This document shows, piece after piece, positions 7,263 to 61,774 of a stretch of 64,000 nt of DNA. Source of the DNA: Alentia gelatinosa (Eukaryota > Annelida > Polychaeta > Phyllodocida > Polynoidae); assembly GCA_950022655.1 (NCBI GenBank), contig OX465584.1, positions 57,215,789 through 57,279,788 of the forward strand. The letters run 5' to 3'. The notes under the pieces were generated by a model. It was not told the DNA's origin. It did not search any database and saw only the letters and a list, made by a program, of their open reading frames with translations. How positions within the stretch are numbered: the first letter of the stretch is position 1; the number at the start of each line of letters is the position of its first letter. The translations under genes and the position numbers were made by a program.

Positions 7263-7352
7263 AACAGACTGAAAACCTCGCTTAAGGGGACACCCCGCAT
7301 AAAGGGACACTTTATTAGGAACGAAGGGTATCCCCCTAAGTGGGGTTTTACT
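7263..7352. repeat. CAGTAAAACCCC foldback MITE
   Basis: CGCTTAAGGGGACACCCCGC on one side and CCCTAAGTGGGGTTTTACTG on the other. The family shows TA-flanked CAGTAAAACCCC...GGGGTTTTACTG ends in better-preserved copies. Confidence 0.6.
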
Positions 7353-12128: not shown

Positions 12129-12310
12129 GTTATATCAGTGTCTCTATACCATAGTGTGTGCTACCTCTATACACAATGATAACATATCCATCAACAGACT
12201 GAAAACCCCGCTTAAGGGGGTTATATCAGTGTCTCTATACCATAGTGTGTGCTACCTCTATACACAATGATAACATATCCATCAACAGACTGAAAACCCC
12301 GCTTAAGGGG
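12129..12310 (+). repeat. 91-bp tandem duplication
   Basis: Starting at 12129 and 12220, two 91-bp units run GTTATATCAGTGTCTCTATA ... AACAGACTGAAAACCCCGCT; the second differs little from the first. A related single unit is at about 7200-7290. Confidence 0.8.
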
Positions 12311-12378
12311 ACACCCCGCGTAAAGGGACACTTTGCTCGGAACGGAGGGTATCCCCTCAAGCGGGGTTTTACTGTATA
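12290..12378. repeat. CAGTAAAACCCC foldback MITE
   Basis: CCCCGCTTAAGGGGACACCC and CCTCAAGCGGGGTTTTACTG form the arms, with TA directly after ACTG. Confidence 0.6.
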
Positions 12379-15952: not shown

Positions 15953-16140
15953 TACAGTAAAACCCCTCTTCCGGGACACCCCGCTTAAGGGGACAATTTG
16001 CTCGGAACGGAAATTTTCCCCAGTATTAAGAGTTTATTTTAACCCCGCTTAAAGGGACACCCCGCTTAAGGGAGCACCCCGCTTTAGGGGACAGTTTTTC
16101 GGTACAGAAATGCTTAAAAACCCCGCTAAAGGGGACAGTT
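15953..16140. repeat. CAGTAAAACCCC foldback MITE
   Basis: TACAGTAAAACCCCTCTTCC start, then several CCCCGCTTAAGGGGACA words. The right end is not clean. Confidence 0.55.
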
Positions 16141-16995: not shown

Positions 16996-17095
16996 AACCA
17001 TTGACAGACTGAAAACCCCGCTTAAGGGGACACCCCGCTTAAGGACACTTGGCCCGGAACGGAGGGTGTCCCCTTAAGAGGGGTTTTACTGTATA
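16996..17095. repeat. CAGTAAAACCCC foldback MITE
   Basis: CCCCGCTTAAGGGGACACCC and CCCTTAAGAGGGGTTTTACT with TA after ACTG. Confidence 0.6.
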
Positions 17096-37608: not shown

Positions 37609-37790
37609 TACAGTAAAATCCCACTTAAGGGTGCACCCTCCGTTCTGAGCAAAGTGCCCCCTTAAGCGGGGTGTCCCCTTAAGGGGGGGGGTTAAAATAA
37701 ACTAAATAAAAGTGTCTCTTCCGAGGAAATTGGCCCCTTAAGCAGGGTGTCCCTTAGGCAGGGTGTCCCAGAAACTGGATTTTACTGTAA
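37609..37790. repeat. CAGTAAAATCCC foldback MITE
   Basis: TTACAGTAAAATCCCACTTA to GGATTTTACTGTAA, with AAGCAA on both sides. It lies about 200 bp upstream of the second CSP exon. Confidence 0.65.
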
Positions 37791-41303: not shown

Positions 41304-43094
41304 GGTTGTCATTCGCATTCGTGGCCCTGTGTGTTAAAACCAGGGTTTCTGTGTTGCCATGGTAACTCGGAGAGGTGTACTTAAGAGCTGGTGTTTGTGG
41401 GCTCGGAAGGTATTTACACCATCAAGCAATGTTAATTAAAAAGAATATATAAATATAGACATACACATGTAGGAAGAACTCTCAAACGAAACCAAATGAA
41501 AATTACATAGATCAGAATTTGCCGTAAAGCAGTTCTAACTATGGTTATAGTGGGTGGTGACAAAAATGGTGGCAATTATATTATAGAGTACATTGTATGC
41601 TAGAGAAGGCATATAGCGGTAGAGAGTTTTGAGCAATTTACCGTTTCACTCCACCTCCACCAGCGCCTAGCCGACAGAATACTAGTTCTCATGTGAGTTG
41701 AGCCACTTGTGAAGACACCTCACATACATTTAAGATTGTAAGGACTTGAGCGTGCGTATTTAGTTCATGAAACCACTCGCAGACGTTGTTTTTGTATGTC
41801 GGTTTGTTTTCACCTAGAAGCTGATGAGTAGTTTGTACCTCACTTTGTCTCGGCGGTATGGGTGGGAGTAGATACTGTGGTAGCCGAGTTGTGTTTGTTC
41901 ATCTTGTTCAACTTAGCAGACAACATTTATCTCATTGGCGGTGGTACACTACAGGCGGCGCCACCAGGCAAACATAAGCTGAAAGGTAATTTTGATCGAT
42001 CTACTGAATGCAGCTGCTTTGTTTTCCACAAGTTATTAGTGTCCTGAAGTGAAGATGTATGTATGCCCCAAACCTACACATGATAAACCTAAGCCTTGTC
42101 TTAACGTAATTAATCCTTTAATACACTCACAGACATAATGTATTATTCAGTTAAATCATTGAGTAAAAACGTACAGGTGTGTGGGGATTAGAATGAATAA
42201 CAAAAATCTACATCTGGCTTAGTGGTGGGTATTCTAGATTCCTCACTGTAAGCTTCCATGTGTTCCCGTTGTACCTGGTTTGTTCCCGTTGTACTCTGAT
42301 AGACTGGTTCCCCACCCCAATGAACAATGAGACAGGTAACCCCCAGTGAGAGTAAAGCGTGGTCGACCTTGAACTTTCACTGGTTTCCCACTGATTTGCA
42401 GTGGCAAGGAGAACCAGCACAACCTCTCTCCTAGCCAGTAATGCAGTTAACATTTACCAGGCGGCGTGTTCATGCCACTACAGCTCAATGCGATCCCACA
42501 GAGCATCAGAAAAATGGTGTTACCTACCTGAGTGAACACATAGGCTTCCTGGCTAAGATTCTGAACATTCTTTACAAACACACATACCATGTGTTTCTGG
42601 TTCCGGTTGTTCGCGAATCGTTTTGCTATTTAAGTTCTTTGTGTTTAATTTATGCTGTGTGTTAGAGAACGTCTGTGATGTAGGTGTTTGGAGAGTGGAG
42701 CCGCATTGTGACACGTAAAGCCAGACGTAGGTATAAGGAGAGTGTGTACATACATGTAGTTCCGTGATGACACAGCCACCCACCCACCAGCTCACGGCAT
42801 GCCCATAGTTTAATTATCAAGCCAAAAAGAAGAATTCCCGCAATGTTCCTCCAGGACCACATTTTCCCCACACTTCCCCACACATGAAATAATGTGAAAA
42901 AAATCATGCTTGTAAAGATGACGGAAGGGCCTGGTCACGAACTGACCCGCCATATGGTTCACCCTGACTGGTTGATCAGGGAAGATAATCCCGGTTTGAT
43001 GATAGAAGGGTACACAAATGTAGTATTTTAATGTGAGAACAGCCTCCAGATCACAGCTCAATGCACATTTCAGTGAATAAACACATTTAAACTG

Positions 43095-43330
43095 GTCCCT
43101 GAGTGTCCCCGTGTCCTCCTCTAGGCAGGCTGGGTACCAGGATTTCATCGCTGGTTCCCTATGTCCCCATGCCCTTCCCTAGGCAGACCAGGTACCAGGG
43201 GGACCTCATCGCTGGGTCCCTGTGTGACCCTATGCCCTTGTCTAGGCAGGACGGGTACCAGGTAGACCGTATAGCTGGGTCCCCGCATGTCCCTGTGCCT
43301 TCCTCTAGGCAGGTCAGATACCAGGGGGAC
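43095..43330 (+). repeat. Four-unit tandem repeat, copy A
   Basis: CTAGGCAG-centred units at 43122, 43180, 43243 and 43306 (spacing 58, 63, 63), each with GGTACCAGG or a close variant. The open frames over it on both strands follow from the repeat and are not genes. Confidence 0.8.
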
Positions 43331-44288
43331 CTTGCGGTTAGAAACACAATCACCACCATGCAACTCCAGGTCACGTCAGCGTAATCGTCATTCCATTCCA
43401 TGTTTATCATAACTTACCCCTTCTTCATAACTTGTTGTTCCTGGTATAACACTCTCTCATTCATAATTATAGTCAGAAAAAAAGTAAAAAGTCCCTTCAA
43501 CGTCCTTGTTGGATTCTTATCGTTATTACTCATATGATAAGACGGTACGTGTTAGGTATCATCATATTGTTTTACTGTGTTGTACCACCAGCCCCTAGTT
43601 TACTAACCCAGTAGTCTTGGGGATGAGTTTTCACTTTTCCCGCTTGAGGCGGTAGTCGAGCAAGGTTCTCTCGAATTCTTGTCATGAAATGTCTTTTATC
43701 CCTAGCCGAGTAGGTCATCATAGGACACTTGCATTGTTTTACTTAACTTACAAATGTAAGGTAATAGAATTATAGTATGGAAATGTGTTGAACACAGATT
43801 CTGGTGCAAGTCTAGTAACATATAACAAAATATATATATAATGGATTTACTACTTTATTTCTTATTCTTTACCACATGGCTGAAGTACTCATACTAAAGG
43901 AGTGTTAAAAAGAGACTCATAGATGCACTTGGGCTTTGTGTATACACTCATACCATATATGACAGATAACTTTCAGGATTGAGTTATGGAAGAGTCTATA
44001 TATGTACTTTCTGTTCTTCGTGTATTCAAGGGTCAGCATATAGTCCATCGTCTGTACATAGCTTCTATGCATGTGCTGCAATAAATTCTGTCAACGAAAT
44101 AAGACCTTGATTATGTTTCCCCTACACTCGAGCTTTCACACAGATAACATAATTAAACCAGTCGCATAGGCCTTCCCTGCTCAATCTAGCATGTATTTGA
44201 AAGTTGATAGGATTCCATATGCTATTAATAATTATCGGGACGTGTACAGAATTATAAATACACAAGACCAGTAGGTGTTTTCTTAGGC

Positions 44289-48085: not shown

Positions 48086-48086
48086 T

Positions 48087-48934
48087 TTTTTTTTGTTTTT
48101 TTTTGATGAGTTTTATTGGGGCAATGATGTACAAGTACGATTGAACAAACAATCCAGGCTCGGCGTGGCCGATCTTCCGCCTGGTCCCTCTGCCTTATTT
48201 TAACAATAGATATAGTATAGGTAGTAGGCTTATGAGTTTACATATCCATACATCAACTCTTGGTTTACAGTACAATCGTTGACTGGCACCATTTTTCAAT
48301 CTGATGAGATGAGATGAATTGGTTACTTCTCTCATGAATAAATATGTAGTAGCAGTAGGAACAGTGTTTAAGCGTAGTAACTGGGTGATCATAATCTTTC
48401 TCTCTAGCAGACAGAACCATTCTTTTCTGTAGTTTTGGGGAATTTTTGGTTGTCCCATCAATTACTCTAAAAATTTTTTGCTCTCTTGAGTGACATAGCT
48501 GGTAGTCGGCTTTAATAATAGCAATTAATCCAGGGTAGAGTATGTATTTGGTCTGGCTGACTGAGAAAGGTCACATAGGGCTACAGGTAGGAGCTGGCTA
48601 TGTTGCAACACAAACAGCTCACAATTCATAATTTAATATTATACATCCGTCCTATAGTTAGAAGATGACCGTTGCAACACAATCAATCAGTCATTGATTA
48701 ACACACAGTGCTAGGTTTCAGAAATCTGTTCAGATACCACTCAATAGTTATTCTCAGGAGTATACTCATTCATACTTAGTCCGATACTGCAGTTACTACA
48801 AGCATATTAACATATTAGAACCATTTAGACACACCATAGTACTTCCTATGATTTTGTATATCTAGTGTTGCAACGCAATCACTATTTATTAAGGGAAAAC
48901 AGATATCATGGTGTTGCAACGCAATCAGTCCATG
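48087..48934 (-). other. LINE 3' region with repeated motif
   Basis: Contains GTTGCAACRCAA (plus-strand reading) at about 48602, 48671, 48867 and 48913, then the poly(A) signal and tail. Such a conserved, repeated 3' word could be recognised by the element's reverse transcriptase; that role is inference. Confidence 0.6.
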
Positions 48935-51763
48935 TCAGTCGTAATAGCAATTAGGGTAATTGCGTTTAGTACAAATTTTAAATGAATTTTTCTCAGTTAT
49001 GTAAGTGTAATCTTCTTTTAGGGTGTTCCATTTGCTTATTGCGCGGACGTGAAAGGAATTATTATACACCGGATGTTTTAGAGGCGGTTGTAATAGTCGT
49101 AAACCTTGTTTTCTTCTTGTGGGCAAATCTCTGGTGTCATGATAATAAATCTGTTGGGCTAAGGTGAAGGAGTAATGCAGTAAATGTATATCTCTACGTT
49201 CATGCAATTTCCTTAAGTTGCCCAGTTGGTGCATTTGGTCTGTTGTGTAAAGTGGATTTTTTTGGAGCTTTACCTTGTATGTAATTAGAAGTATTTTATT
49301 TTGGAGTGCCTGGAGTTCATTTGTTAGGTACAGTTTGTTATTATCGAAAATAAAGTCTCCATAATCTAGATATGGTAAGATTGTGGTCTTGTATATTAAT
49401 AGTGACGTGGCTGTGTCTATATATTTTCTTATTTTCGACAGTAAATATGTCTTATATGTAATTTTTTGGACAATAGATTTTTTGTGTTCATGAAACTTCA
49501 GCTTATCATCTATAGTTAGGCCTAAATAGTTGAAACTTTTAACCTGATTTAATATTTGCTCTTTCATTTTTATTTGATCATTACGTGGTAGATTTTGGTT
49601 ATTAAAGCACATCCAGTATGTTTTGTTTTCATTTATTGTTAACAGGTTGTTCTTGCACCAATTTTCTATTGCAGGTATGATTTCCTGCATGTGATGTGGT
49701 GTAGGGGTAGTGATTACAGTATCGTCCGCGTATAGGGTAGTATGAGAGTTGGCTGTATCTATTTTTAATGGCAAGTCATTAATGTAAATTAGGAACAGGG
49801 TCGGTCCCAGGACCGACCCCTGGGGAACACCATAGGTTATTTGTTTTGTATCAGACAGTGTACCGTATAAATTTACTTTTTGGTGTCTTTTATCGAGGTA
49901 ACTTTTAAACCAATTGCATGTCACATTGTTTAGGCCTATATTGTATAATTTTGAGAGTAGTATATTATGGGAAACAGTATCAAAAGCTTTTTTGAAGTCT
50001 AAGAAAAGTGAGGTTAAGTTATTATTGTTAGTGTAGTGTTGGTATATATGGGTCAAGTAGGTAGTTATAGCCGAAATTGTGGAGTGATTTTCTCTAAAGC
50101 CGTGTTGCATTGGGTGTAATATATTGTTAGATTCAAGGTATGTTTTGAGGCGGTTATTGATGATTTTCTCCAAAATTTTTCCAGGTAAGGGTAATAGGCT
50201 TATAGGGCGGAGGTTGTTTACTTGTGAGATATTACCTTTCTTAGGAATCGGGGTAATGGTGGCAGTTTTCCAGCTTGCTGGAAATGATGAGTGGAATAAA
50301 GTGGCATTAAATAAGGTAAACAGCTTCTCAGGTGCGCATTTAAAGGCTATCTTAAAAATAAAAGTTTTTATGTCTTTAACTGCCGCTGTCTTGTTACAGT
50401 CTATTTTATTAACATATTTCATTATTTCAGGGATGGAGATTGGGTTAGCTAGGATTGAGCTTTCTTGAGCACGTTCAGGGAACTCTAATGATTGATCAGG
50501 AATTTTTTCGAAGTTATCTGCTAAAATTTTTCCAATAGATGAAAAGAAATTGTTAATGAAGTTAGCCCTTTCTCCAGTTGGAATTTCAGAATTGTCATTA
50601 TGATCTATTAATTTAGTAATTAAAGACGGTCTCTCCTTCGGAATAAGTTGTCTAATTCCGTACCAGAATTTCTTGGGATTCGTTTTGTTTTTATCTAGTA
50701 GCTTTTTAATGTTCCTGCCTTTATTTCTTATAATTGATGATTTGGTCTTGTTACGAAAGTGTTTTGCTATTCTCCAGTCGTCCAGTTTTTTTGAATTTTT
50801 TGCCTTTCTGAACCAGTAGTCCCTGTTTTTCATTTCCTTTAAGATGTCTTTTGTTAGCCAGGCAGGTTTATTCTCCGATACGTAGAACATCTTAATTGGT
50901 GCAGATGGTATTAACGCCTTATTGATGTTTCTAATCATGATTTTCCATAGGTATTCAGGTTTATTATTTATGGTGAAGTCATCCCAATTGGAGTCCAGAT
51001 AATTATTAATGAAGTTTTCTTTGTTAAAGTTCTTGTAACATCGGGCTGTTACTTTTTTCTTTGTGATAACATTCCTTGTGTGTTTTACTACCAAAACTAC
51101 CGGCAAATGGTCACTAATGTTAAAATTAATCGTAGAGGCAATCGTTACATCATTAACATTTGTGTATACATGATCAATGACCGTACTGGTAAGTTCTGTT
51201 GTTCTGGTAGGCATTGTTATTAATTGTTTCAAATTATATTCTAAACCAAAATTTTTTATTAACATATGTCTCAGGTGCAGGTCATTGTAGTCCACATTCA
51301 CATCTCCCATTATTATAATTTTTCTATTTAGCGGGCACTGCTCTAAAACTAAGGAAAGCTTATCATAAAGGGTATATGGTGAGGTATGAGGTGGTTTGTA
51401 GATGTTAATTATAAAGTATGTCATCGAGTGCATCTCCAGAAGGCAGGTTATAATTTCATAATCTTCGGTTATTTCTGTGTGCTCATTGATTACTTTATAA
51501 TCAATATAATCTTTAAGATATAACACCAGTCCTTCTCCCTTTTTTTGCACATGCGGTCGTCTGTCCAGACGTATTAAGTTATAACCAGCGAGCATAATGT
51601 TAGCGTTCGGTAGCTTGGGGTTGAGCCAGCTTTCGCTGATCATTATAACATCAAAGGACTCTGACAAGTGCTTAAGTTGTTCAAGATTGGGTAATAGACT
51701 ATAAATATTAATACTCATAAATTTCAGGCCCTTTGCATCTCTAACTTCCCTGAGATCAACCAT
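48935..51763 (-). CDS. LINE ORF2: endonuclease-reverse transcriptase
   Basis: 942 residues, intact. The N-terminal part is an exonuclease-endonuclease-phosphatase (APE-like) nuclease: N19 in SINIYSLLP, E44 in ISESWL, D154 and N156 in GDVNVDYND, and SDHLPV at 217-222. The reverse transcriptase follows, with NLRPISLLP at about 517, HGFRENHST, LDFKKAFDTVSH (Asp589), GVPQGSVLGP at 645 and the catalytic YADD at 678-681. The C-terminal part contains LPYLDYGDFIF and no RNase H. Together these nick target DNA and prime reverse transcription of the element's RNA on it. Domain order and motifs place it in the CR1/Jockey superclade; the exact clade needs a tree. The first Met is 15 codons before the nuclease core, a plausible start. 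Confidence 0.95.
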   Translation of the reverse strand: MVDLREVRDAKGLKFMSINIYSLLPNLEQLKHLSESFDVIMISESWLNPKLPNANIMLAGYNLIRLDRRPHVQKKGEGLVLYLKDYIDYKVINEHTEITEDYEIITCLLEMHSMTYFIINIYKPPHTSPYTLYDKLSLVLEQCPLNRKIIIMGDVNVDYNDLHLRHMLIKNFGLEYNLKQLITMPTRTTELTSTVIDHVYTNVNDVTIASTINFNISDHLPVVLVVKHTRNVITKKKVTARCYKNFNKENFINNYLDSNWDDFTINNKPEYLWKIMIRNINKALIPSAPIKMFYVSENKPAWLTKDILKEMKNRDYWFRKAKNSKKLDDWRIAKHFRNKTKSSIIRNKGRNIKKLLDKNKTNPKKFWYGIRQLIPKERPSLITKLIDHNDNSEIPTGERANFINNFFSSIGKILADNFEKIPDQSLEFPERAQESSILANPISIPEIMKYVNKIDCNKTAAVKDIKTFIFKIAFKCAPEKLFTLFNATLFHSSFPASWKTATITPIPKKGNISQVNNLRPISLLPLPGKILEKIINNRLKTYLESNNILHPMQHGFRENHSTISAITTYLTHIYQHYTNNNNLTSLFLDFKKAFDTVSHNILLSKLYNIGLNNVTCNWFKSYLDKRHQKVNLYGTLSDTKQITYGVPQGSVLGPTLFLIYINDLPLKIDTANSHTTLYADDTVITTPTPHHMQEIIPAIENWCKNNLLTINENKTYWMCFNNQNLPRNDQIKMKEQILNQVKSFNYLGLTIDDKLKFHEHKKSIVQKITYKTYLLSKIRKYIDTATSLLIYKTTILPYLDYGDFIFDNNKLYLTNELQALQNKILLITYKVKLQKNPLYTTDQMHQLGNLRKLHERRDIHLLHYSFTLAQQIYYHDTRDLPTRRKQGLRLLQPPLKHPVYNNSFHVRAISKWNTLKEDYTYITEKNSFKICTKRNYPNCYYD

Positions 51764-52008: not shown

Positions 52009-52707
52009 CTAATTTGTTAATTTCCACCAGTTGTTAATCATACTTTTATCTAGTTTTGTAGCAACAATTCGTGAGGCACGTTCGTTGAGGTGGCAACCGT
52101 CATAAAGGTCTACATATTTGTGAGACATCCTTGAGTTACCCATAGATTTATGGAATCTGGACGCAGTCCAGGGGGTTGGGAGGTTATTACTCTCGTTATA
52201 CTTGGTAATTTGACCGTTTATTCTTGTTATAGCTGTGTTTAGCATGTCTTGTTCAGTCAGTCTTCGTTGAAGCTCGTCCTCAGTTTGGATTATAGGGGTT
52301 ATCATCGGGGATACCCCTGCCTGGTATTTATTCTTCGTGTACGCATTGTAGAAGGCAATATTCATACCGATGATGGGGAGGAATATTGTCTTTAAAGTTG
52401 TTTGCCTCATGATTTCTGTATACGTGTTGGATATATGCCAGATCGTGTCGCTTACAAGTGAGTCAATATCATTGTCCCGTATAAAGACTTGTTTGGTTAG
52501 GGAATTGCGGTATGTTAGGTTACATATCCCTGTGTAGCTTATCACAACACTCGGGCTCAAGTTTATCCCTAGACGGACCGCATGTGATACCATGTTGTCA
52601 ATTCGTAGACCCGGGAATGAATGGACTCTGTATGTGAGACAACTTTCTTCAAACATATTCGGCGTCAGCGCAAACCCCCTCGAGTCGGCAACAATAAGCA
52701 CAGACAT
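52009..52707 (-). CDS. LINE-encoded SGNH-type hydrolase
   Basis: 232 residues, intact, as its own ORF between ORF1 and ORF2. Four SGNH-family blocks can be aligned by eye: nucleophile block VADSRG (Ser9), Gly33 in SFPGLR, SYTGICN with Asn63, and the Asp-His block DGCHLN (Asp203, His206). Members hydrolyse esters; CR1/L2-type LINEs are known to carry esterase domains, usually within ORF1. Here it is separate, about 390 nt after ORF1 and 245 nt before ORF2, so it needs its own translation start. Substrate and role in retrotransposition are unknown. No signal peptide or membrane segment is evident. Confidence 0.8.
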   Translation of the reverse strand: MSVLIVADSRGFALTPNMFEESCLTYRVHSFPGLRIDNMVSHAVRLGINLSPSVVISYTGICNLTYRNSLTKQVFIRDNDIDSLVSDTIWHISNTYTEIMRQTTLKTIFLPIIGMNIAFYNAYTKNKYQAGVSPMITPIIQTEDELQRRLTEQDMLNTAITRINGQITKYNESNNLPTPWTASRFHKSMGNSRMSHKYVDLYDGCHLNERASRIVATKLDKSMINNWWKLTN

Positions 52708-52864: not shown

Positions 52865-53095
52865 TCACTCGGGTGCGGTTGTTTCGGTCGAAGCAGTCGA
52901 CGCGTCTAGCAGCTGCGCAGGGTCTAGTGTATCTTCATTGCCCACCGCAGGTACGGACCAGTCTGCTGCTATTGGTGATCTGGGTTGGTTCGGTGAGCGC
53001 ATTGGGTTGTGGTAGGGGCGCTGTGCATTGAGTAGACTGAAGTGTCGTGGGGGTTGTGGGGTAGATCTATGGCATAACTCATTCCGCACGTCCAT
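52865..53095 (-). CDS. LINE small ORF overlapping ORF1 stop
   Basis: 76 codons starting at an ATG that overlaps the ORF1 stop (TGATG, 53097-53093), the arrangement used for termination-reinitiation in some non-LTR elements. The product is rich in Pro, Ser, Asn and Thr with no recognised domain (MDVRNELCHRSTPQPPRHF at the start). It might be a remnant linker once joined to the hydrolase ORF, or a real small protein. Downstream is about 160 nt of non-coding sequence with one GTTGCAACGCAA word (52748). Confidence 0.4.
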   Translation of the reverse strand: MDVRNELCHRSTPQPPRHFSLLNAQRPYHNPMRSPNQPRSPIAADWSVPAVGNEDTLDPAQLLDASTASTETTAPE

Positions 53096-54354
53096 CAGGA
53101 TTGCCCCCCGATGTTTGCACCCTTATATGTACCCAAGTGCAGTTCTTTTGATTGTAGGTAGCAGCCTATACCCCATCGCGGATCCAGGGTAGCCTCGAGT
53201 AGGGTTCTCGTGCCTGTATTGTCCAGTTTGTGTAGTAGTGCAGGGTTCTGGTTGTACTTGGCCAGATTAAACTTACGCAGTTTATCGTCAGCGATCACAG
53301 ACCATTGTTGGGTCTCAAGTGCTTTTGTGACCCTTTTCATTTGATGGGGGTCATCAAGTGCCATGACTTGGGATGCAATGGACATATTCCCGGCGAAAGT
53401 TGCCTTTTCATGACAATAGGCCTGCTCTACTGAGCTGTATGTGACTCCGTCATTTTCAAACTGCGCGGGGTAGAGGTTTGAGAATGGGGAGTGGTGGCTA
53501 TGGTAGGCCACCGTTGTAGGTGTATAGCGGGTTTTGAGTGCCTCGAGGTTGATTGCGTCAGGTAGATTTGCCAGATCTTTGTATGCATAATACTTCCCCT
53601 GGTGTACTATACCTCTCCCTCGTAATTTCGCCTCCACTCCCACCTTTTCCGCTAATTTAGATAACGCTCGCAGTTCCGTTTTTTGTGTTTTTATTACTGG
53701 GTTCGCATCTTCATTTATAAAGATACGATGCAGATCGGGGAATTTCTTAAGTTTATTCTTTTCTCTTAGAATTATGTCTTTAGTGTGAGCCTTTGTGAAG
53801 GTTGCTAGTATTGGGCGCGTGTCACGACTGGTTTTGCCTATTCGGAAAGCTTGGTCTAAGTCATCTGGGGTAATGGCAGGGTATATACGGGAACAAATAT
53901 CCAGGGTTATGGCGCGTGGGTCCTCGTTATCAGACTGGTCGACCCCGTCTATGACCACGTTCTTTTTCCTCTGATTGTGATCGTTGAGGATTGACATGTC
54001 ATATAGCTGACTCGTTTTATGCTCAGTTTTAGCTTGCTGCTTTTCAAGTGTACTAATTTTCTGGGTAAGAGATTTTAGGCTCTGTTTTAGAGTTACGTTT
54101 TCATCTTTTAGGCCCTGGATGTCTAGTTGGGAATCTTCAACGGACTTCTTTAACTCGGCAATGGCTGACACCTCTTTTCTAGTCTCAGTGGCCACGCTAC
54201 GCGTTTCTTTCACCAATTCCGTAAGACTTTCAAGGACTGTCGCAACTTTGCAAATAGCGTCTTCCTCTATACCCGAAGTTGATCGCGTTTTTTGTTTCGG
54301 TCTTTCCTTCAGGTCTTTCAAGGCCTGGGCGGCCGCGTCCTCAAGGTGTGACAT
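53095..54354 (-). CDS. LINE ORF1: RNA-binding protein with NADAR domain
   Basis: 419 residues, intact. Residues about 60-115 are a heptad-rich coiled coil (ELKKSVEDSQLDIQGLKDEN). Residues 130-200 resemble an ORF1p RRM (NVVIDGVDQ, FRIGK, RPILATF), and 200-260 an ORF1p C-terminal domain (RIFINEDANP). Residues about 282-405 form a NADAR/YbiA-type domain: SPFSNLYPAQF (289-299), YSSVEQAYCHEKA (306-318), Trp351, KFNLAKYNQNPALL (361-374), and TGTRTLLEATLDPRWGIG (380-397), the family's terminal L-x-E-x4-D-x2-WG-x-G. NADAR proteins cleave N-glycosidic bonds of ribosides, and some remove ADP-ribose from guanine. The coiled coil and RRM should make it a nucleic-acid-binding multimer on the element's RNA; the NADAR role here is unknown. 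Confidence 0.88.
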   Translation of the reverse strand: MSHLEDAAAQALKDLKERPKQKTRSTSGIEEDAICKVATVLESLTELVKETRSVATETRKEVSAIAELKKSVEDSQLDIQGLKDENVTLKQSLKSLTQKISTLEKQQAKTEHKTSQLYDMSILNDHNQRKKNVVIDGVDQSDNEDPRAITLDICSRIYPAITPDDLDQAFRIGKTSRDTRPILATFTKAHTKDIILREKNKLKKFPDLHRIFINEDANPVIKTQKTELRALSKLAEKVGVEAKLRGRGIVHQGKYYAYKDLANLPDAINLEALKTRYTPTTVAYHSHHSPFSNLYPAQFENDGVTYSSVEQAYCHEKATFAGNMSIASQVMALDDPHQMKRVTKALETQQWSVIADDKLRKFNLAKYNQNPALLHKLDNTGTRTLLEATLDPRWGIGCYLQSKELHLGTYKGANIGGQS

Positions 54355-54617
54355 GACTCAGGTGAGCGATAATGGGTGTGTATATATGCGGTATGTAGTA
54401 CAGTATCAACAGACTCGTCAAAAACTCAATAAACACCCGACTTTTGGCATATAAGGTGAACCACAGGGTCTGGGTAGTATAGGTTAATCAATACATACAG
54501 TTTTTGTCCACTCTCTTGTGTCAGGGTAAGATAAACCTAGGAATCAATCTCCTCCGCTACACCACACGTCCGCTCACGTAGCCGCCATGAACTACAGGGG
54601 TCAATGGCGTTAGAGAG

Positions 54618-54678
54618 TTTAGGCTCTGTTTTAGAGTTACGTTTTCATCTTTTAGGCCCTGGATGTCTAGTTGGGAAT
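54618..54678 (+). repeat. 61-bp copy of ORF1 sequence at LINE junction
   Basis: Identical to 54074-54134 over 61 bp and in the same orientation, ending exactly where Gypsy integrase sequence resumes. The word ATAAACCTAGGAA occurs at 54531-54543 and again at 54677-54689. Confidence 0.85.
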
Positions 54679-54679
54679 A

Positions 54680-55770
54680 AACCTAGGAAGTGTTAGATCA
54701 AAGGTATCTCAAGATAGTCAGGGAGATGGTAGTTTCTTCATGAAAATTGGTTTGATTCATAGGAAGTCTATTAACAAAGAAAAGGGAGATAGAGAAGTAG
54801 ATCAACTGGTTGTCCCAAAATTCTGCTGCAAGGATTTGTTGATCATGGCACATTCCATACCTCTAGCAGGACACCTGAGGGTGGAAAAGACATGGGAATG
54901 GTTGCTGGCCCATTTCTTTCAGCAAGGTGTTTACAAAGATTTAAAAAAATTTTGTGAGTCCTGCCCAGATTGCCAGAAGGCAACTGGTCGCCTGTCAGAT
55001 CCACCGGCAGAGTTACAGCCAATCCCTCCTATGGGACTTCCCTTCCGAAAGATTTTCATGAACATTGTAGGTCCACTGCCAAGAACCAAAGAAGGTTATA
55101 GGTACATTTTGTCAGTCATAGATCAAGATACTAGGTATCCTGAGGCAATACCCCTATGAAATCAAAGTGCAGAAGCAGTTGCAGATGCTCTTGTGACTAT
55201 TTTCTCTTGGGTAGGAATTCCAGAGGAAATTTCAAGTGATCAGGGTACCAACTTCATGTCCCAGTTGGTAAAAGATCTGTGCAAACAGCTGCAGATTCAG
55301 CAGTTATCAACCACACCCTATCATCAGGCTGCGAATGGTCTAGTAGAAAGGTGGAATCAGACAATGAAAAACATGTTGAGATGTATGATCCATGATGAAC
55401 CATATACTTGGGACAGATTGTTGCCCTATGTTTTGTTTGCCTACAGAGAAGTACTGGAAGCCAGCACGGGATTTTCACCATTTGAGTTGGTGTGCGGTTG
55501 GCCTATAAGGGGTCCCCTCTCTGTTGTGAAAGAGGCATGGGTTGAAAAGGATGATCCTGGTGATATCATAGATTTTATCGTAGAAACTAGATCTAGACTC
55601 ATGACATCAGTAGAACTAGCCCAGGAAAATCTTCAGAAATCTCAGTCAGACATGAAAACCTGGTATGACCAAAAAGCTCAAGAGAAAGTTTTTGAAGTTG
55701 GGGAAGAAGTACTTTTACTTTTACCAACATCAAGCAAGTACCCAGAGGCTAAATGGCAATCAAATGATTG
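54680..55770 (+). pseudogene. Gypsy-type integrase, broken
   Basis: The zinc-binding region is intact in outline (HSIPLAGH, then CESCPDC). The core follows: NIVGPLP near 55060, where the first catalytic Asp usually lies and Asn stands instead; SDQGTNF (second Asp present); and NGLVERWNQTMK (catalytic Glu present). An in-frame TGA at 55157-55159 splits the core. The C-terminal LLLLPTSSKYPEAKWQ begins the usual chromodomain-proximal module, then stops at about 55770. The enzyme would join LTR cDNA to host DNA; this copy is inactive. It directly precedes reverse transcriptase rather than following RNase H. Confidence 0.85.
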
Positions 55771-56300
55771 AAGAAGGAATCATAGTAGAATCTAGTAGTG
55801 AGTGGGCATCTCCTGTAGTTCTTGTTGCAAAGAAACAAGATGGTAAGCAGACTGGAATTTGTGTTTGTATTGGCTTTAAAAAGGTCAACCTGCTTACAAA
55901 ATTTGATAATCTGAGAATCTGGGATCAGCTAGCTACATTAGCAAGTTAGATCTAACAAAAGGGTATTAGCAGATACCTTTATCCCCTGACTCAAGAGATA
56001 AGAGCCTTCAGAACTCCACATGGGTTGTATAGATTTACTGTATTCCCCTTTTGGTTGAAGAATGCCAGAGTAGCATTTGCCCGGATGATGGACAGTGTGT
56101 TAAAAGGCACAGAAGGCTTTGCAGCTGCCTACTTAGATGATGTAGTGATATACAGCTCTAGCTTTGAGGAACATGTGGATCATCTACAGATAGTATTTGA
56201 CAAGCTAGCAGAAGCCGACCTTGTAGCCAAGCCAAGTAAGTGCAACTCGGACATGCACACGTAGAGTTTCAGGTCGGGATTCCAACTGAATATGTATTCA
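55765..56300 (+). pseudogene. Gypsy-type reverse transcriptase, broken
   Basis: Starts MIEEGIIVESSSEWASPVVL, only a few bases after the integrase frame ends. Further matches are KKVNLLTKFD, KLDLTKGY (followed by a stop where Trp is usual), TPHGLYRFTVFPF, and the catalytic AAYLDDVVIY at about 56130. At least two frame changes occur (about 55930-56000 and 56245). The thumb region is cut by an insertion and resumes at about 57928. Confidence 0.85.
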
Positions 56301-59014: not shown

Positions 59015-60578
59015 GTGGTTGTCATTCGCGTTCGTGGCCCTGCGTGTTAAAACCAGGGTTTCTGTGTTGCCATGGTAACTCGGAGAGGTGTACTTAAGAG
59101 CTGGTGTTTGTGGGCTCGGAAGGAATTTACACCATCAAGCAATGTTAATTAAAAAGAATATATAAATATAGACATACACATGTAGGAAGCAACTCTCAAA
59201 CAAAACCAAATGAAAATTACATAGATCAGAATTTGCCGTAAAGCAGTTCTAACTATGGTTATAGTGGGTGGTGACAAAAATGGTGGCAATTATATTATAG
59301 AGTACATTGCATGCTAGAGAAGGCATATAGCAGTAGGGAGTTTTGAGCAATTTACCGTTTCACTCCACCTCCACCAGCGCCTAGCTGACAGAATACTAGT
59401 TCTCATGTGAGTTGAGGCACTTGGTACGACACCTCACATACATTTACGATTGTAAGGACTTGAGCGTGCGTATTTAGTTCATGAAACCACTCGCAGACGT
59501 TGTTTTTGTATGTCGGTTTGTTTTCACCTAGAAGCTGATGAGGAGTTTGTACCTCACTTTGTCTCAGCGGTATAGGCGGGAGTAGATACTGTGGTAGCCG
59601 AGTTGTGGTTGTTCATCTTGTTCAACTTAGCAGACGACATTATTCAGTTAAATCATTGAGTAGAAACGTACAGGTGTGTGGGGATTAGAATGAATAACAA
59701 AAATCTACATCTGGCTTAGTGCTGGGTATTCTCGATTCCTCACTGTAAGCTTCCATGTGTTCCCGTTGTACCTGGTTTGTTCCCGTTGTACTCTGATGGA
59801 CTGGTTCCCCGCCCCAATGAACAATGGGACAGGTAACCCCCAGTGAGAGTAAAGCGTGGTCGACCTTGAACTTTCACTGGTTTCCCACTGATTTGCAGTG
59901 GCAAGGAGAACCAGCACAACCTCTCTCCTAGCCAGTAGTGCAGTTAACATTTACCAGGCAGCATGTTCATGCCACTACAGCTCAATGCGATCCCACAAAG
60001 CATCAGAAAAATGGTGTTACCTACCTGAGTGAACACATAGGCTTCCTGGCTAAAATTCTGGACATTCTTTACAAACACACACACCATGTGTTTCTGGTTC
60101 CGGTTGATTGCGAATCGTTTTGCTATTTAAAATCTTTGTGTTTAATTTATGCTGCGTGTTAGAGAACGTCTGTGATGAAGGTGTTTGGAGAGTGGAGCCG
60201 CATTGTGACACGAAAAGCCAGACGTAGGTAAAAGGAGAGTGTGTACATACATGTAGTTCCGTGATGACACAGCCACCCACCCACCGGCTCACGCCATGCC
60301 CATAGTTTAATTATTAAGCCCAAAAGAAGAATTCCCGCAATGTTCCTCCAGGACCACATTTTCCCCACACTTCCCCACACATGAAATAATGTGAAAAAAA
60401 TCATGCTTATAAAGATGACAGAAGGGCCTGATCGCGAACTGACCCGCCATATGGTTCACCCTGACTGGTTGATCAGGGAAGATAATCCCAGTTTGATGAT
60501 AGAAGGGTACACAAATGTGAGAACAGCCTCCAGACCACAGCTTAATGCACATTTCAGTGAATAAACACATTTAAACTG

Positions 60579-60814
60579 GTCCCTGAGTGTCCCCGTGTCC
60601 TCCTCTAGGCAGGCTGGGTACCAGGATTTCATCACTGGTTCCCTATGTCCCCATGCCCTTCCCTAGGCAGACCAGGTACCAGGGGGACCTCATTGCTGGG
60701 TCCCTGTGTGTCCCTATGCCCTTCTCTAGGCAGGCCGGGTACCAGGTAGACCGTATAGCTGGGTCCCCGCATGTCCCTGTGCCTTCCTCTAGGCAGGTCA
60801 GATACCAGGGGGAC
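60579..60814 (+). repeat. Four-unit tandem repeat, copy B
   Basis: TAGGCAG at 60606, 60664, 60727 and 60790, the same spacing as copy A. Confidence 0.8.
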
Positions 60815-61774
60815 CTTGTGGTTAGAAACACAATCACCACCATGCAACTCCAGGTCACGTCAGCATAATCGTCATTCCATTCCATGTTTATCATAACTTA
60901 CCCCTTCTTCATAACTTGTTGTTCCTGGTATAACACTCTCTCATTCATAATTATAGTCAGAAAAAAAGTTAAAAGTCCCTTCAACGTCCTTGTTGGATTC
61001 TTATTGTTATTACTCATACGATAAGACGGTACGTGTTAGGTATCATCATATTGTTTTACTGTGTTGTACCACCAGCCCCTAGTTTACTAACCCAGTAGTC
61101 TTGGGGATGAGTTTTCACCTTTCCCGCTTGAGGCGGTAGTCGAGCAAGGTTCTCTCGAATTCTTGTCATAAAATGTCTTTTATCCCTAGCCGAGTAGGTC
61201 ATCATAGGACACTTGCATTGTTTTACTTAACTTACAGATGTAAGGTAATAGAATTATAGTATTGAAATGTGTTGAACACAGATTCTGGTGCAAGTCTAGT
61301 AACATATAACAAAATATATATATAATGGATTTACTACTTTATTTCTTATTCTTTATCACATGGCTGAAGTACTCATACTAAAGGAGTGTAAAAAAGAGAC
61401 TCATAGATGCACTTGGGCTTTGTGTATACACTCATACCATATATGACAGATAACTTTCAGGATTGAGTTATGGAAGAGTCTATATATGTACTTTCTGTTC
61501 TTCGTGTATTCAAGGGTCAGCATATAGTCCATCGTCTGTACATAGCTTCTATGCATGTGCTGCAATAAATTCTGTCAACGAAATAAGACCTTGATTATGT
61601 TTCCCCTACACTCAAGCTTTCACACAGATAACATAATTAAACCAGTCGCATAGGCCTTCCCTGCTCAATCTAGCATGTATTTGAAAGTTGATAGGATTCC
61701 ATATGCTATTAATAATTATCGGGACGTGTACAGAATTATAAATACACAAGACCAGTAGGTGTTTCCTTAGGCAT

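Follow-up and report, generated by a model that had tools for sequence, protein, structure and literature searches.

A 64,000-nucleotide stretch of the Alentia gelatinosa genome (GenBank assembly GCA_950022655.1, contig OX465584.1, positions 57,215,789 to 57,279,788), which we call the window, contains a long interspersed nuclear element (LINE) whose ORF1 protein (ORF1p) carries a NADAR domain. The open-reading-frame (ORF) list places ORF1, a middle ORF and ORF2 of the element one after another on the minus strand. The NADAR looks like a working part of the element and not an accident, because about 100 related copies were found in the genome and nearly all of the 31 that were checked keep the active site. 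We consider it quite possible, if short of an even chance, that in this lineage of three-ORF LINEs a YbiA-type NADAR was added to the C-terminus of ORF1p and has stayed enzymatically active there, as a tethered de-ADP-ribosylase of nucleic acid. An earlier note on this DNA had described this ORF1 and quoted its NADAR motifs; the ORF (53095-54354, minus strand, 419 residues) and the motifs were both found.

The Pfam NADAR profile matched ORF1 residues 286-417 with 72.8 bits (cut-off 35.1), and the unnamed PHROG 1017 matched the same residues with an E value of 3.3e-23. The earlier assignment of the domain to a LINE ORF1 was borne out by this match and by the ORF2 downstream, which has endonuclease and RVT_1 domains. 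The structure model, built from an alignment that included 40 NADAR rows, has the YbiA fold. Sequence identity to the P. nicotianae NADAR 8bau and to E. coli YbiA 2b3w is 23-24%. The catalytic Glu and Lys of the family (E43 and K50 of 8bau) and its last-strand Glu, Asp or His (E125 of 8bau) are all present, as E310, K317 and E387. K366 is also kept in 31 of 31 sister copies. Fold and residues together ruled out a profile artefact, and the Glu in the last strand ruled out a NADAR of the BC4488/DarT1 type, which has Asp there. The positions are as follows.

53095..54354, minus strand: ORF1, 419 codons and a stop (ORF list, Pfam), with coiled coil, RRM/CTD-like region and NADAR; the frame is broken just before the end
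53104..53499, minus strand: NADAR domain, ORF1 residues 286-417 (Pfam NADAR, PF08719)
53425..53427, minus strand: E310, equivalent to catalytic E43 of 8bau and E88 of E. coli C7; kept in 30 of 31 copies
53404..53406, minus strand: K317, equivalent to K50 and K95 of the same proteins; kept in 31 of 31
53302..53304, minus strand: W351, equivalent to W89; kept in 31 of 31
53194..53196, minus strand: E387, equivalent to E125, the YbiA-type catalytic glutamate; kept in 31 of 31
53182..53184, minus strand: D391, equivalent to D130; kept in 31 of 31
53173..53175, minus strand: W394, equivalent to W133; kept in 31 of 31

A search of the same assembly (1.23 Gb, 101 contigs) with ORF1, at E values up to 1e-3, revealed at least 102 matches, the window included, with identities from 43 to 100%; 100 of 3,679 candidates were scored, so the count is a lower bound. 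Residue 396 or further was reached by 94 of the 102 rows. Three of the other eight are fragments with the NADAR on a partner row, and five stop inside the NADAR (residues 348-377). The candidates were ranked by the whole ORF1, a ranking that cannot show that sisters lacking the NADAR do not exist. A chimaera confined to a single copy, against which the earlier note had cautioned, is ruled out by these matches and their extent. We retrieved 40 of the 101 other loci, and the 31 with a whole ORF1 match in one open frame are the copies counted above; some are near-identical (for example L085 and L088), so not all are independent.

The sister copies suggest that the NADAR has been maintained. Pfam NADAR was recognised in all eight sister ORF1s scanned, with 80.9-96.1 bits against the cut-off of 35.1. 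The domain is conserved nearly as strongly as the part resembling the C-terminal domain (CTD) of LINE-1 ORF1p, the mean pairwise identities being 0.576 and 0.589, respectively. The ratio of nonsynonymous to synonymous change (dN/dS), which the earlier note had proposed to compare across copies, was 0.131 for the NADAR when pooled over three disjoint pairs; the RRM part gave 0.122, the CTD part 0.050 and the coil 0.153. These are signs of purifying selection on the NADAR in a small sample: only four pairs had a synonymous difference (pS) above 0.03 and a synonymous distance (dS) below 1, and two of the three pooled pairs had dS values of 0.04 and 0.07. In addition, NADAR distances tracked ORF2 distances among 18 copies (153 pairs; r 0.80, 0 of 2000 permutations), and the rest of ORF1 tracked ORF2 likewise (r 0.80 and 0.78). 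This parallel divergence fits a single lineage that inherited the NADAR fusion.

The window copy itself is not intact, contrary to the earlier description. Its ORF1 stops at GANIGGQS, where NADARs go on with GxNLLGxxLMxVR, and the Pfam match ends at profile position 152, compared with 159-163 of 163 in all eight sisters scanned. At 53104 the next frame encodes the missing helix.

52868..53104, minus strand: last NADAR helix and proline-rich tail, 79 open codons in a frame other than that of ORF1 (matrix score; in frame in 30 of 31 sister copies)

Scored with a small matrix derived from three NADAR rows, this helix ranked first among the 81,101 stop-free eight-residue peptides of the window in six frames (score 15.9, runner-up 11.8). 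The sister ORFs extend 21 to 83 residues beyond the column of residue 405, whereas the window copy extends 15. Because the helix lies in the next frame at 53104 in the window copy and in the ORF1 frame in 30 of 31 sisters, the sequences indicate that a frame shift near the stop removed it here and that unbroken copies exist. A programmed frameshift is not needed to account for the end of ORF1, as 30 of 31 sisters read on in one frame and the downstream folding is unremarkable (z 0.17).

Three regions precede the NADAR.

53956..54273, minus strand: coiled coil, ORF1 residues 28-133 (structure model and heptad pattern)
53704..53955, minus strand: RRM-like region, ORF1 residues 134-217 (tentative label, unconfirmed by searches)
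53530..53703, minus strand: region like the C-terminal domain of LINE-1 ORF1p, ORF1 residues 218-275

Residues 28-133 were modelled as one helix, with a block-mean predicted local distance difference test (pLDDT) value of 79-93 over residues 31-130, and hydrophobic residues occupy the a and d positions of a heptad pattern in residues 36-121 (shuffle p 0.0008). The coiled coil named in the earlier note is supported by these features, whereas the RRM-like region named with it was not confirmed by Pfam or PDB searches. We label residues 134-217 RRM-like only tentatively: they gave no Pfam match, their model confidence was low, and alignment of the RRM/CTD part against PDB sequences yielded nothing useful. 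They are conserved among 12 aligned family members. Neither the whole ORF1 nor its NADAR part by itself had relatives at E 1e-3 in the protein database, in a word-based first look that may miss them; the same database yielded 6,719 ORF2 relatives among 8,000 candidates scored. Viral contigs gave no relatives of ORF1 or ORF2. In a 43-row tree aimed at the origin of the NADAR, the branch of the LINE row was very long (4.6-5 changes per column), and none of the neighbouring placements had support.

In the explanation that we favour, the coiled coil probably multimerises ORF1p, and the RRM/CTD-like part would coat the element RNA. The NADAR, tethered to that ribonucleoprotein particle (RNP), would hydrolyse N-glycosidic ADP-ribose adducts in cis, most likely guanine adducts on the element's own RNA or first-strand cDNA, and their removal would free reverse transcription from a block by host or toxin ADP-ribosylation. 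NADARs were the sole hydrolase family tested that removed guanosine ADP-ribosylation from RNA, all tested representatives reversing it (PMC11833690), and they act on DNA too (PMC11543638). These activities make it reasonable to propose that the domain protects RNA or cDNA. The authors suggest that the most active NADAR may owe its activity to nucleic-acid binding (PMC11833690), and a nucleic-acid-binding extension has been proposed for DarT1-linked NADARs (PMC11543638), a contribution that an RNA-binding ORF1p would provide in cis. By analogy, invertebrate RNA viruses carry NADARs that have been read as a counter to host ADP-ribosylation (PMC9503650), and the same logic may apply to the LINE. 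The guanine-specific DNA ADP-ribosyltransferase CARP-1 of clams (PMC11209040), a shellfish enzyme, is only a suggestive link to the window LINE.

Several features weigh against a de-ADP-ribosylase. Compared with 8bau and YbiA 2b3w, the window NADAR is distinguished by its fusion to a LINE ORF1 and by a loop between K340 and R341 that is three residues shorter. This is the pyrophosphate-shielding loop K75-xLG-R79 of 8bau; it is shortened in the window LINE and in all 31 aligned copies. The window NADAR retains K340 and R341 but has lost G78 and two neighbours, so the ADP-ribose-binding loop of 8bau is not matched. Y84, D86 and R93 of 8bau are replaced by L346, T348 and A355. Because of the shorter loop and these replacements, ADP-ribose binding may be weak or different, and the shortening in all 31 copies may reflect another ligand geometry or another substrate. 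The loop is not itself part of the NADAR family definition, and the D86 and R93 columns are variable among 40 comparator NADARs from bacteria and viral contigs too. The window domain keeps 10 of the 18 columns that are invariant in these 40 and agrees with their majority at 48 of 140 columns; all 32 rows carry a change at positions 314, 323, 410 and 416, as do 17 of the 32 at position 367. Moreover, riboflavin intermediates are substrates of E. coli YbiA (PMC9303266).

This last activity also favours the alternative in which the NADAR is active but cleaves N-glycosidic bonds in small molecules, such as riboflavin-type intermediates or free or cyclic ADP-ribose derivatives that serve the host as alarm signals, and merely rides on ORF1p. 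Such a role is preferred for phage NADARs in PMC9503650, the YbiA-type glutamate E387 is present, and the shortened loop could mean another ligand. A soluble target gives no obvious reason, however, for a fusion to ORF1p kept across 43-100% identity. The riboflavin equivalog TIGR02464, which describes an N-glycosidase of riboflavin intermediates, was also missed (65.1 bits, below the cut-off of 73.7), though only the window copy, without its last helix, was scored. We regard this alternative as unlikely.

Somewhat more unlikely is a non-catalytic module that binds ADP-ribosylated host proteins, PARylated integration sites or nucleic acid and aids RNP assembly or targeting. The ADP-ribose loop altered in all 31 aligned copies would suit such a module, and another accessory domain of ORF1, the PHD, is thought to be a reader (PMC4120745). 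Binding alone, on the other hand, seems to need less than the retention of E310, K317, E387 and D391, each in 30 or 31 of 31 copies. We find it improbable, more so than either of these, that the NADAR helps to process RNA or to repair the retrotransposition intermediate, with ADP-ribose products from the repair or ligation of RNA ends as its substrates. RNA processing has been suggested for retrotransposon NADARs (PMC12477816), RNA repair has been suggested for NADARs (PMC9503650), and trans-splicing in nematodes requires a NADAR protein (PMC9303266); yet none of the three ORFs matched a ligase or kinase family in Pfam at E 1. Finally, a functionless chance chimaera or profile artefact, which could draw on the broken frame near the end of the window ORF1, can be dismissed given the 102 matches, the conserved residues and dN/dS well below 1.

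The remaining ORFs of the element lie downstream of ORF1, and the earlier note overlooked the one in the middle (52009-52707).

52009..52707, minus strand: middle ORF, 232 aa, tentatively SGNH/GDSL-hydrolase-like (ORF list, family alignment, PDB profile match)
48935..51763, minus strand: ORF2, 942 aa, endonuclease and reverse transcriptase (Pfam, conserved columns)
51098..51718, minus strand: endonuclease domain, ORF2 residues 16-222 (Pfam Exo_endo_phos, 2.1e-9)
49511..50248, minus strand: reverse transcriptase domain, ORF2 residues 506-751, with YADD at 678 (Pfam RVT_1, 1.2e-43)

Twenty sister loci of 8.4 kb were examined for all three ORFs. A relative of the middle ORF was present in 17 and of ORF2 in 18, with both in 16, and all three ORFs were unbroken in five (L083, L085, L090, L093 and L097). 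SGNH hydrolases have a catalytic Ser in block I, a Gly in block II, an Asn in block III and DxxH in block V. Among 14 aligned members of the middle-ORF family, D8-S9, G33 and D203-x-x-H206 are invariant; no Asn is invariant at the usual GxN place of block III, while N68 is invariant nearby. The best PDB match of the family profile was weak (the GDSL-like lipase 3p94, E 0.038), and 3p94 is also the top match for a type IV esterase ORF1 (PMC4120745, Table 1). Lipase_GDSL_2 appeared in one of the 14 members (E 0.04) amid other chance-level matches. The middle ORF alone gave nothing useful against the PDB, and its single-sequence model was uninformative (mean pLDDT 32.4). We tentatively describe it as SGNH-like, on sequence grounds, and do not call it a member of the family.

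The APE-type endonuclease and the reverse transcriptase of ORF2 identify the element as a non-LTR (long terminal repeat) retrotransposon, that is, a LINE. Across 54 relatives (the 900-990 aa ones among 120 listed), 99 columns reach a conservation of at least 95%; ORF2 retains 97 of them, and the window copy looks young because of this retention.

The ends of the insertion have the following features.

48086..48934, minus strand: 3' untranslated region, with AATAAA at 48112-48117 and an A-rich run at 48086-48104 (from the sequence; end inferred)
54609..54678, minus strand: 70-base copy of part of ORF1 (54065-54134, 97%), lying where the insertion probably has its 5' end

The AATAAA and the A-rich run (48086-48117) probably mark the 3' end of the LINE insertion. 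The 70-base duplicate, which shows a few bases of microhomology with the flank, fits template jumping as reverse transcription ended. It sits between the LINE and Gypsy-like integrase frames that adjoin the element on its 5' side (window 54671-55771, plus strand; Integrase_H2C2, 1.4e-12), where the rve frame scored 31.8 bits, just below the cut-off of 32.6. The LINE seems to have inserted into a degenerate LTR element. No target-site duplication was found among shared words of at least seven bases, the one 7-mer lying away from the insertion ends. The palindrome GTTGCAAC occurs five times in the window (48602, 48671, 48867, 48913 and 52748; about 1.1 expected window-wide), always within the LINE, four times in the 3' untranslated region and once just before the middle ORF, with the wider common context TTGYGTTGCAAC. 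Two similar arrays of a 63-base tandem unit (43094-43332 and 60578-60816, 3.9 copies each, about 17 kb apart) flank the LINE. Elsewhere in the window, a 16-17-base unit like ACCCCGCTTAAGGGAC forms short arrays at 7275-7310, 12296-12331, 16042-16089, 17015-17048 and 37654-37769.

The earlier note knew of no LINE with this fusion, but the fusion as such is already known. In Crassostrea gigas, several families of Tx1 LINEs are reported to carry a NADAR-like domain of the YbiA family in ORF1 (Dinatale et al. 2025, PMC12477816), a finding to which the paper gives one sentence and a supplementary alignment. Those elements resemble the window LINE in the NADAR-like domain of the ORF1 protein and are classed as Tx1, whereas the window ORF2 (942 aa against 1275) is no nearer to LINE-1 ORF2p, at 62.9 bits, than to R2, at 65.9 bits, in a comparison that included no Tx1 reference. 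The window LINE also has a separate SGNH-like ORF between ORF1 and ORF2; the two groups may nonetheless be the same. The same paper describes an Ectocarpus Gypsy lineage with a NADAR at the N-terminus of Pol that matched almost only bacterial proteins in the authors' search. This is likewise a retrotransposon with a captured YbiA-family NADAR, but an LTR element with the domain in Pol instead of ORF1.

Type II ORF1s, found in LINE-1 and some L2/CR1 elements, consist of a coiled coil, RRM and CTD (PMC4120745). The window ORF1 shares the coiled coil followed by a CTD-like part, with the RRM unconfirmed, and differs from them in the NADAR that follows the CTD-like part and in the variable tail of the sister copies. 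Esterase (type IV) ORF1s occur in CR1/L2 elements such as ZfL2-1 (PMC3905857, PMC4120745); they are restricted to two vertebrate L2 and CR1 groups in PMC4120745, and PMC3905857 widens esterase ORFs to RTEX and Penelope-like elements. A LINE with an SGNH-like hydrolase is common to both cases, but here the hydrolase-like protein has a middle ORF to itself, next to an ORF1 that bears a NADAR, and it differs in the block-III asparagine, which is not invariant at the usual place. In the portions of the LINE ORF papers covered, we found no element described that pairs a NADAR ORF1 with a separate SGNH ORF, and among the matches listed no title or abstract beyond PMC12477816 reported a retrotransposon NADAR. 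Nor did we find accounts of such a three-ORF order with its short ORF2, of this scale, of data on selection and co-divergence, or of a loop change throughout the family. Should the oyster elements turn out to share this lineage, only the anatomy and the evolutionary evidence would be new.

The favoured explanation can be extended to counter-defence, which we consider possible but doubtful: LINEs would have evolved an RNP-tethered de-ADP-ribosylase, kept across deep divergence in one genome, that erases host guanine ADP-ribosylation from RNA or cDNA. If true, this would imply that the host ADP-ribosylates the nucleic acid of retroelements as part of an immune or genome-defence system. PMC11125620 describes the animal role of NADARs as open, and a many-copy lineage with a conserved active site, in which ORF1p probably acts as a nucleic-acid tether, makes that role directly testable. 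If the NADAR is needed for retrotransposition, nucleic-acid ADP-ribosylation would be a candidate layer of transposon control.
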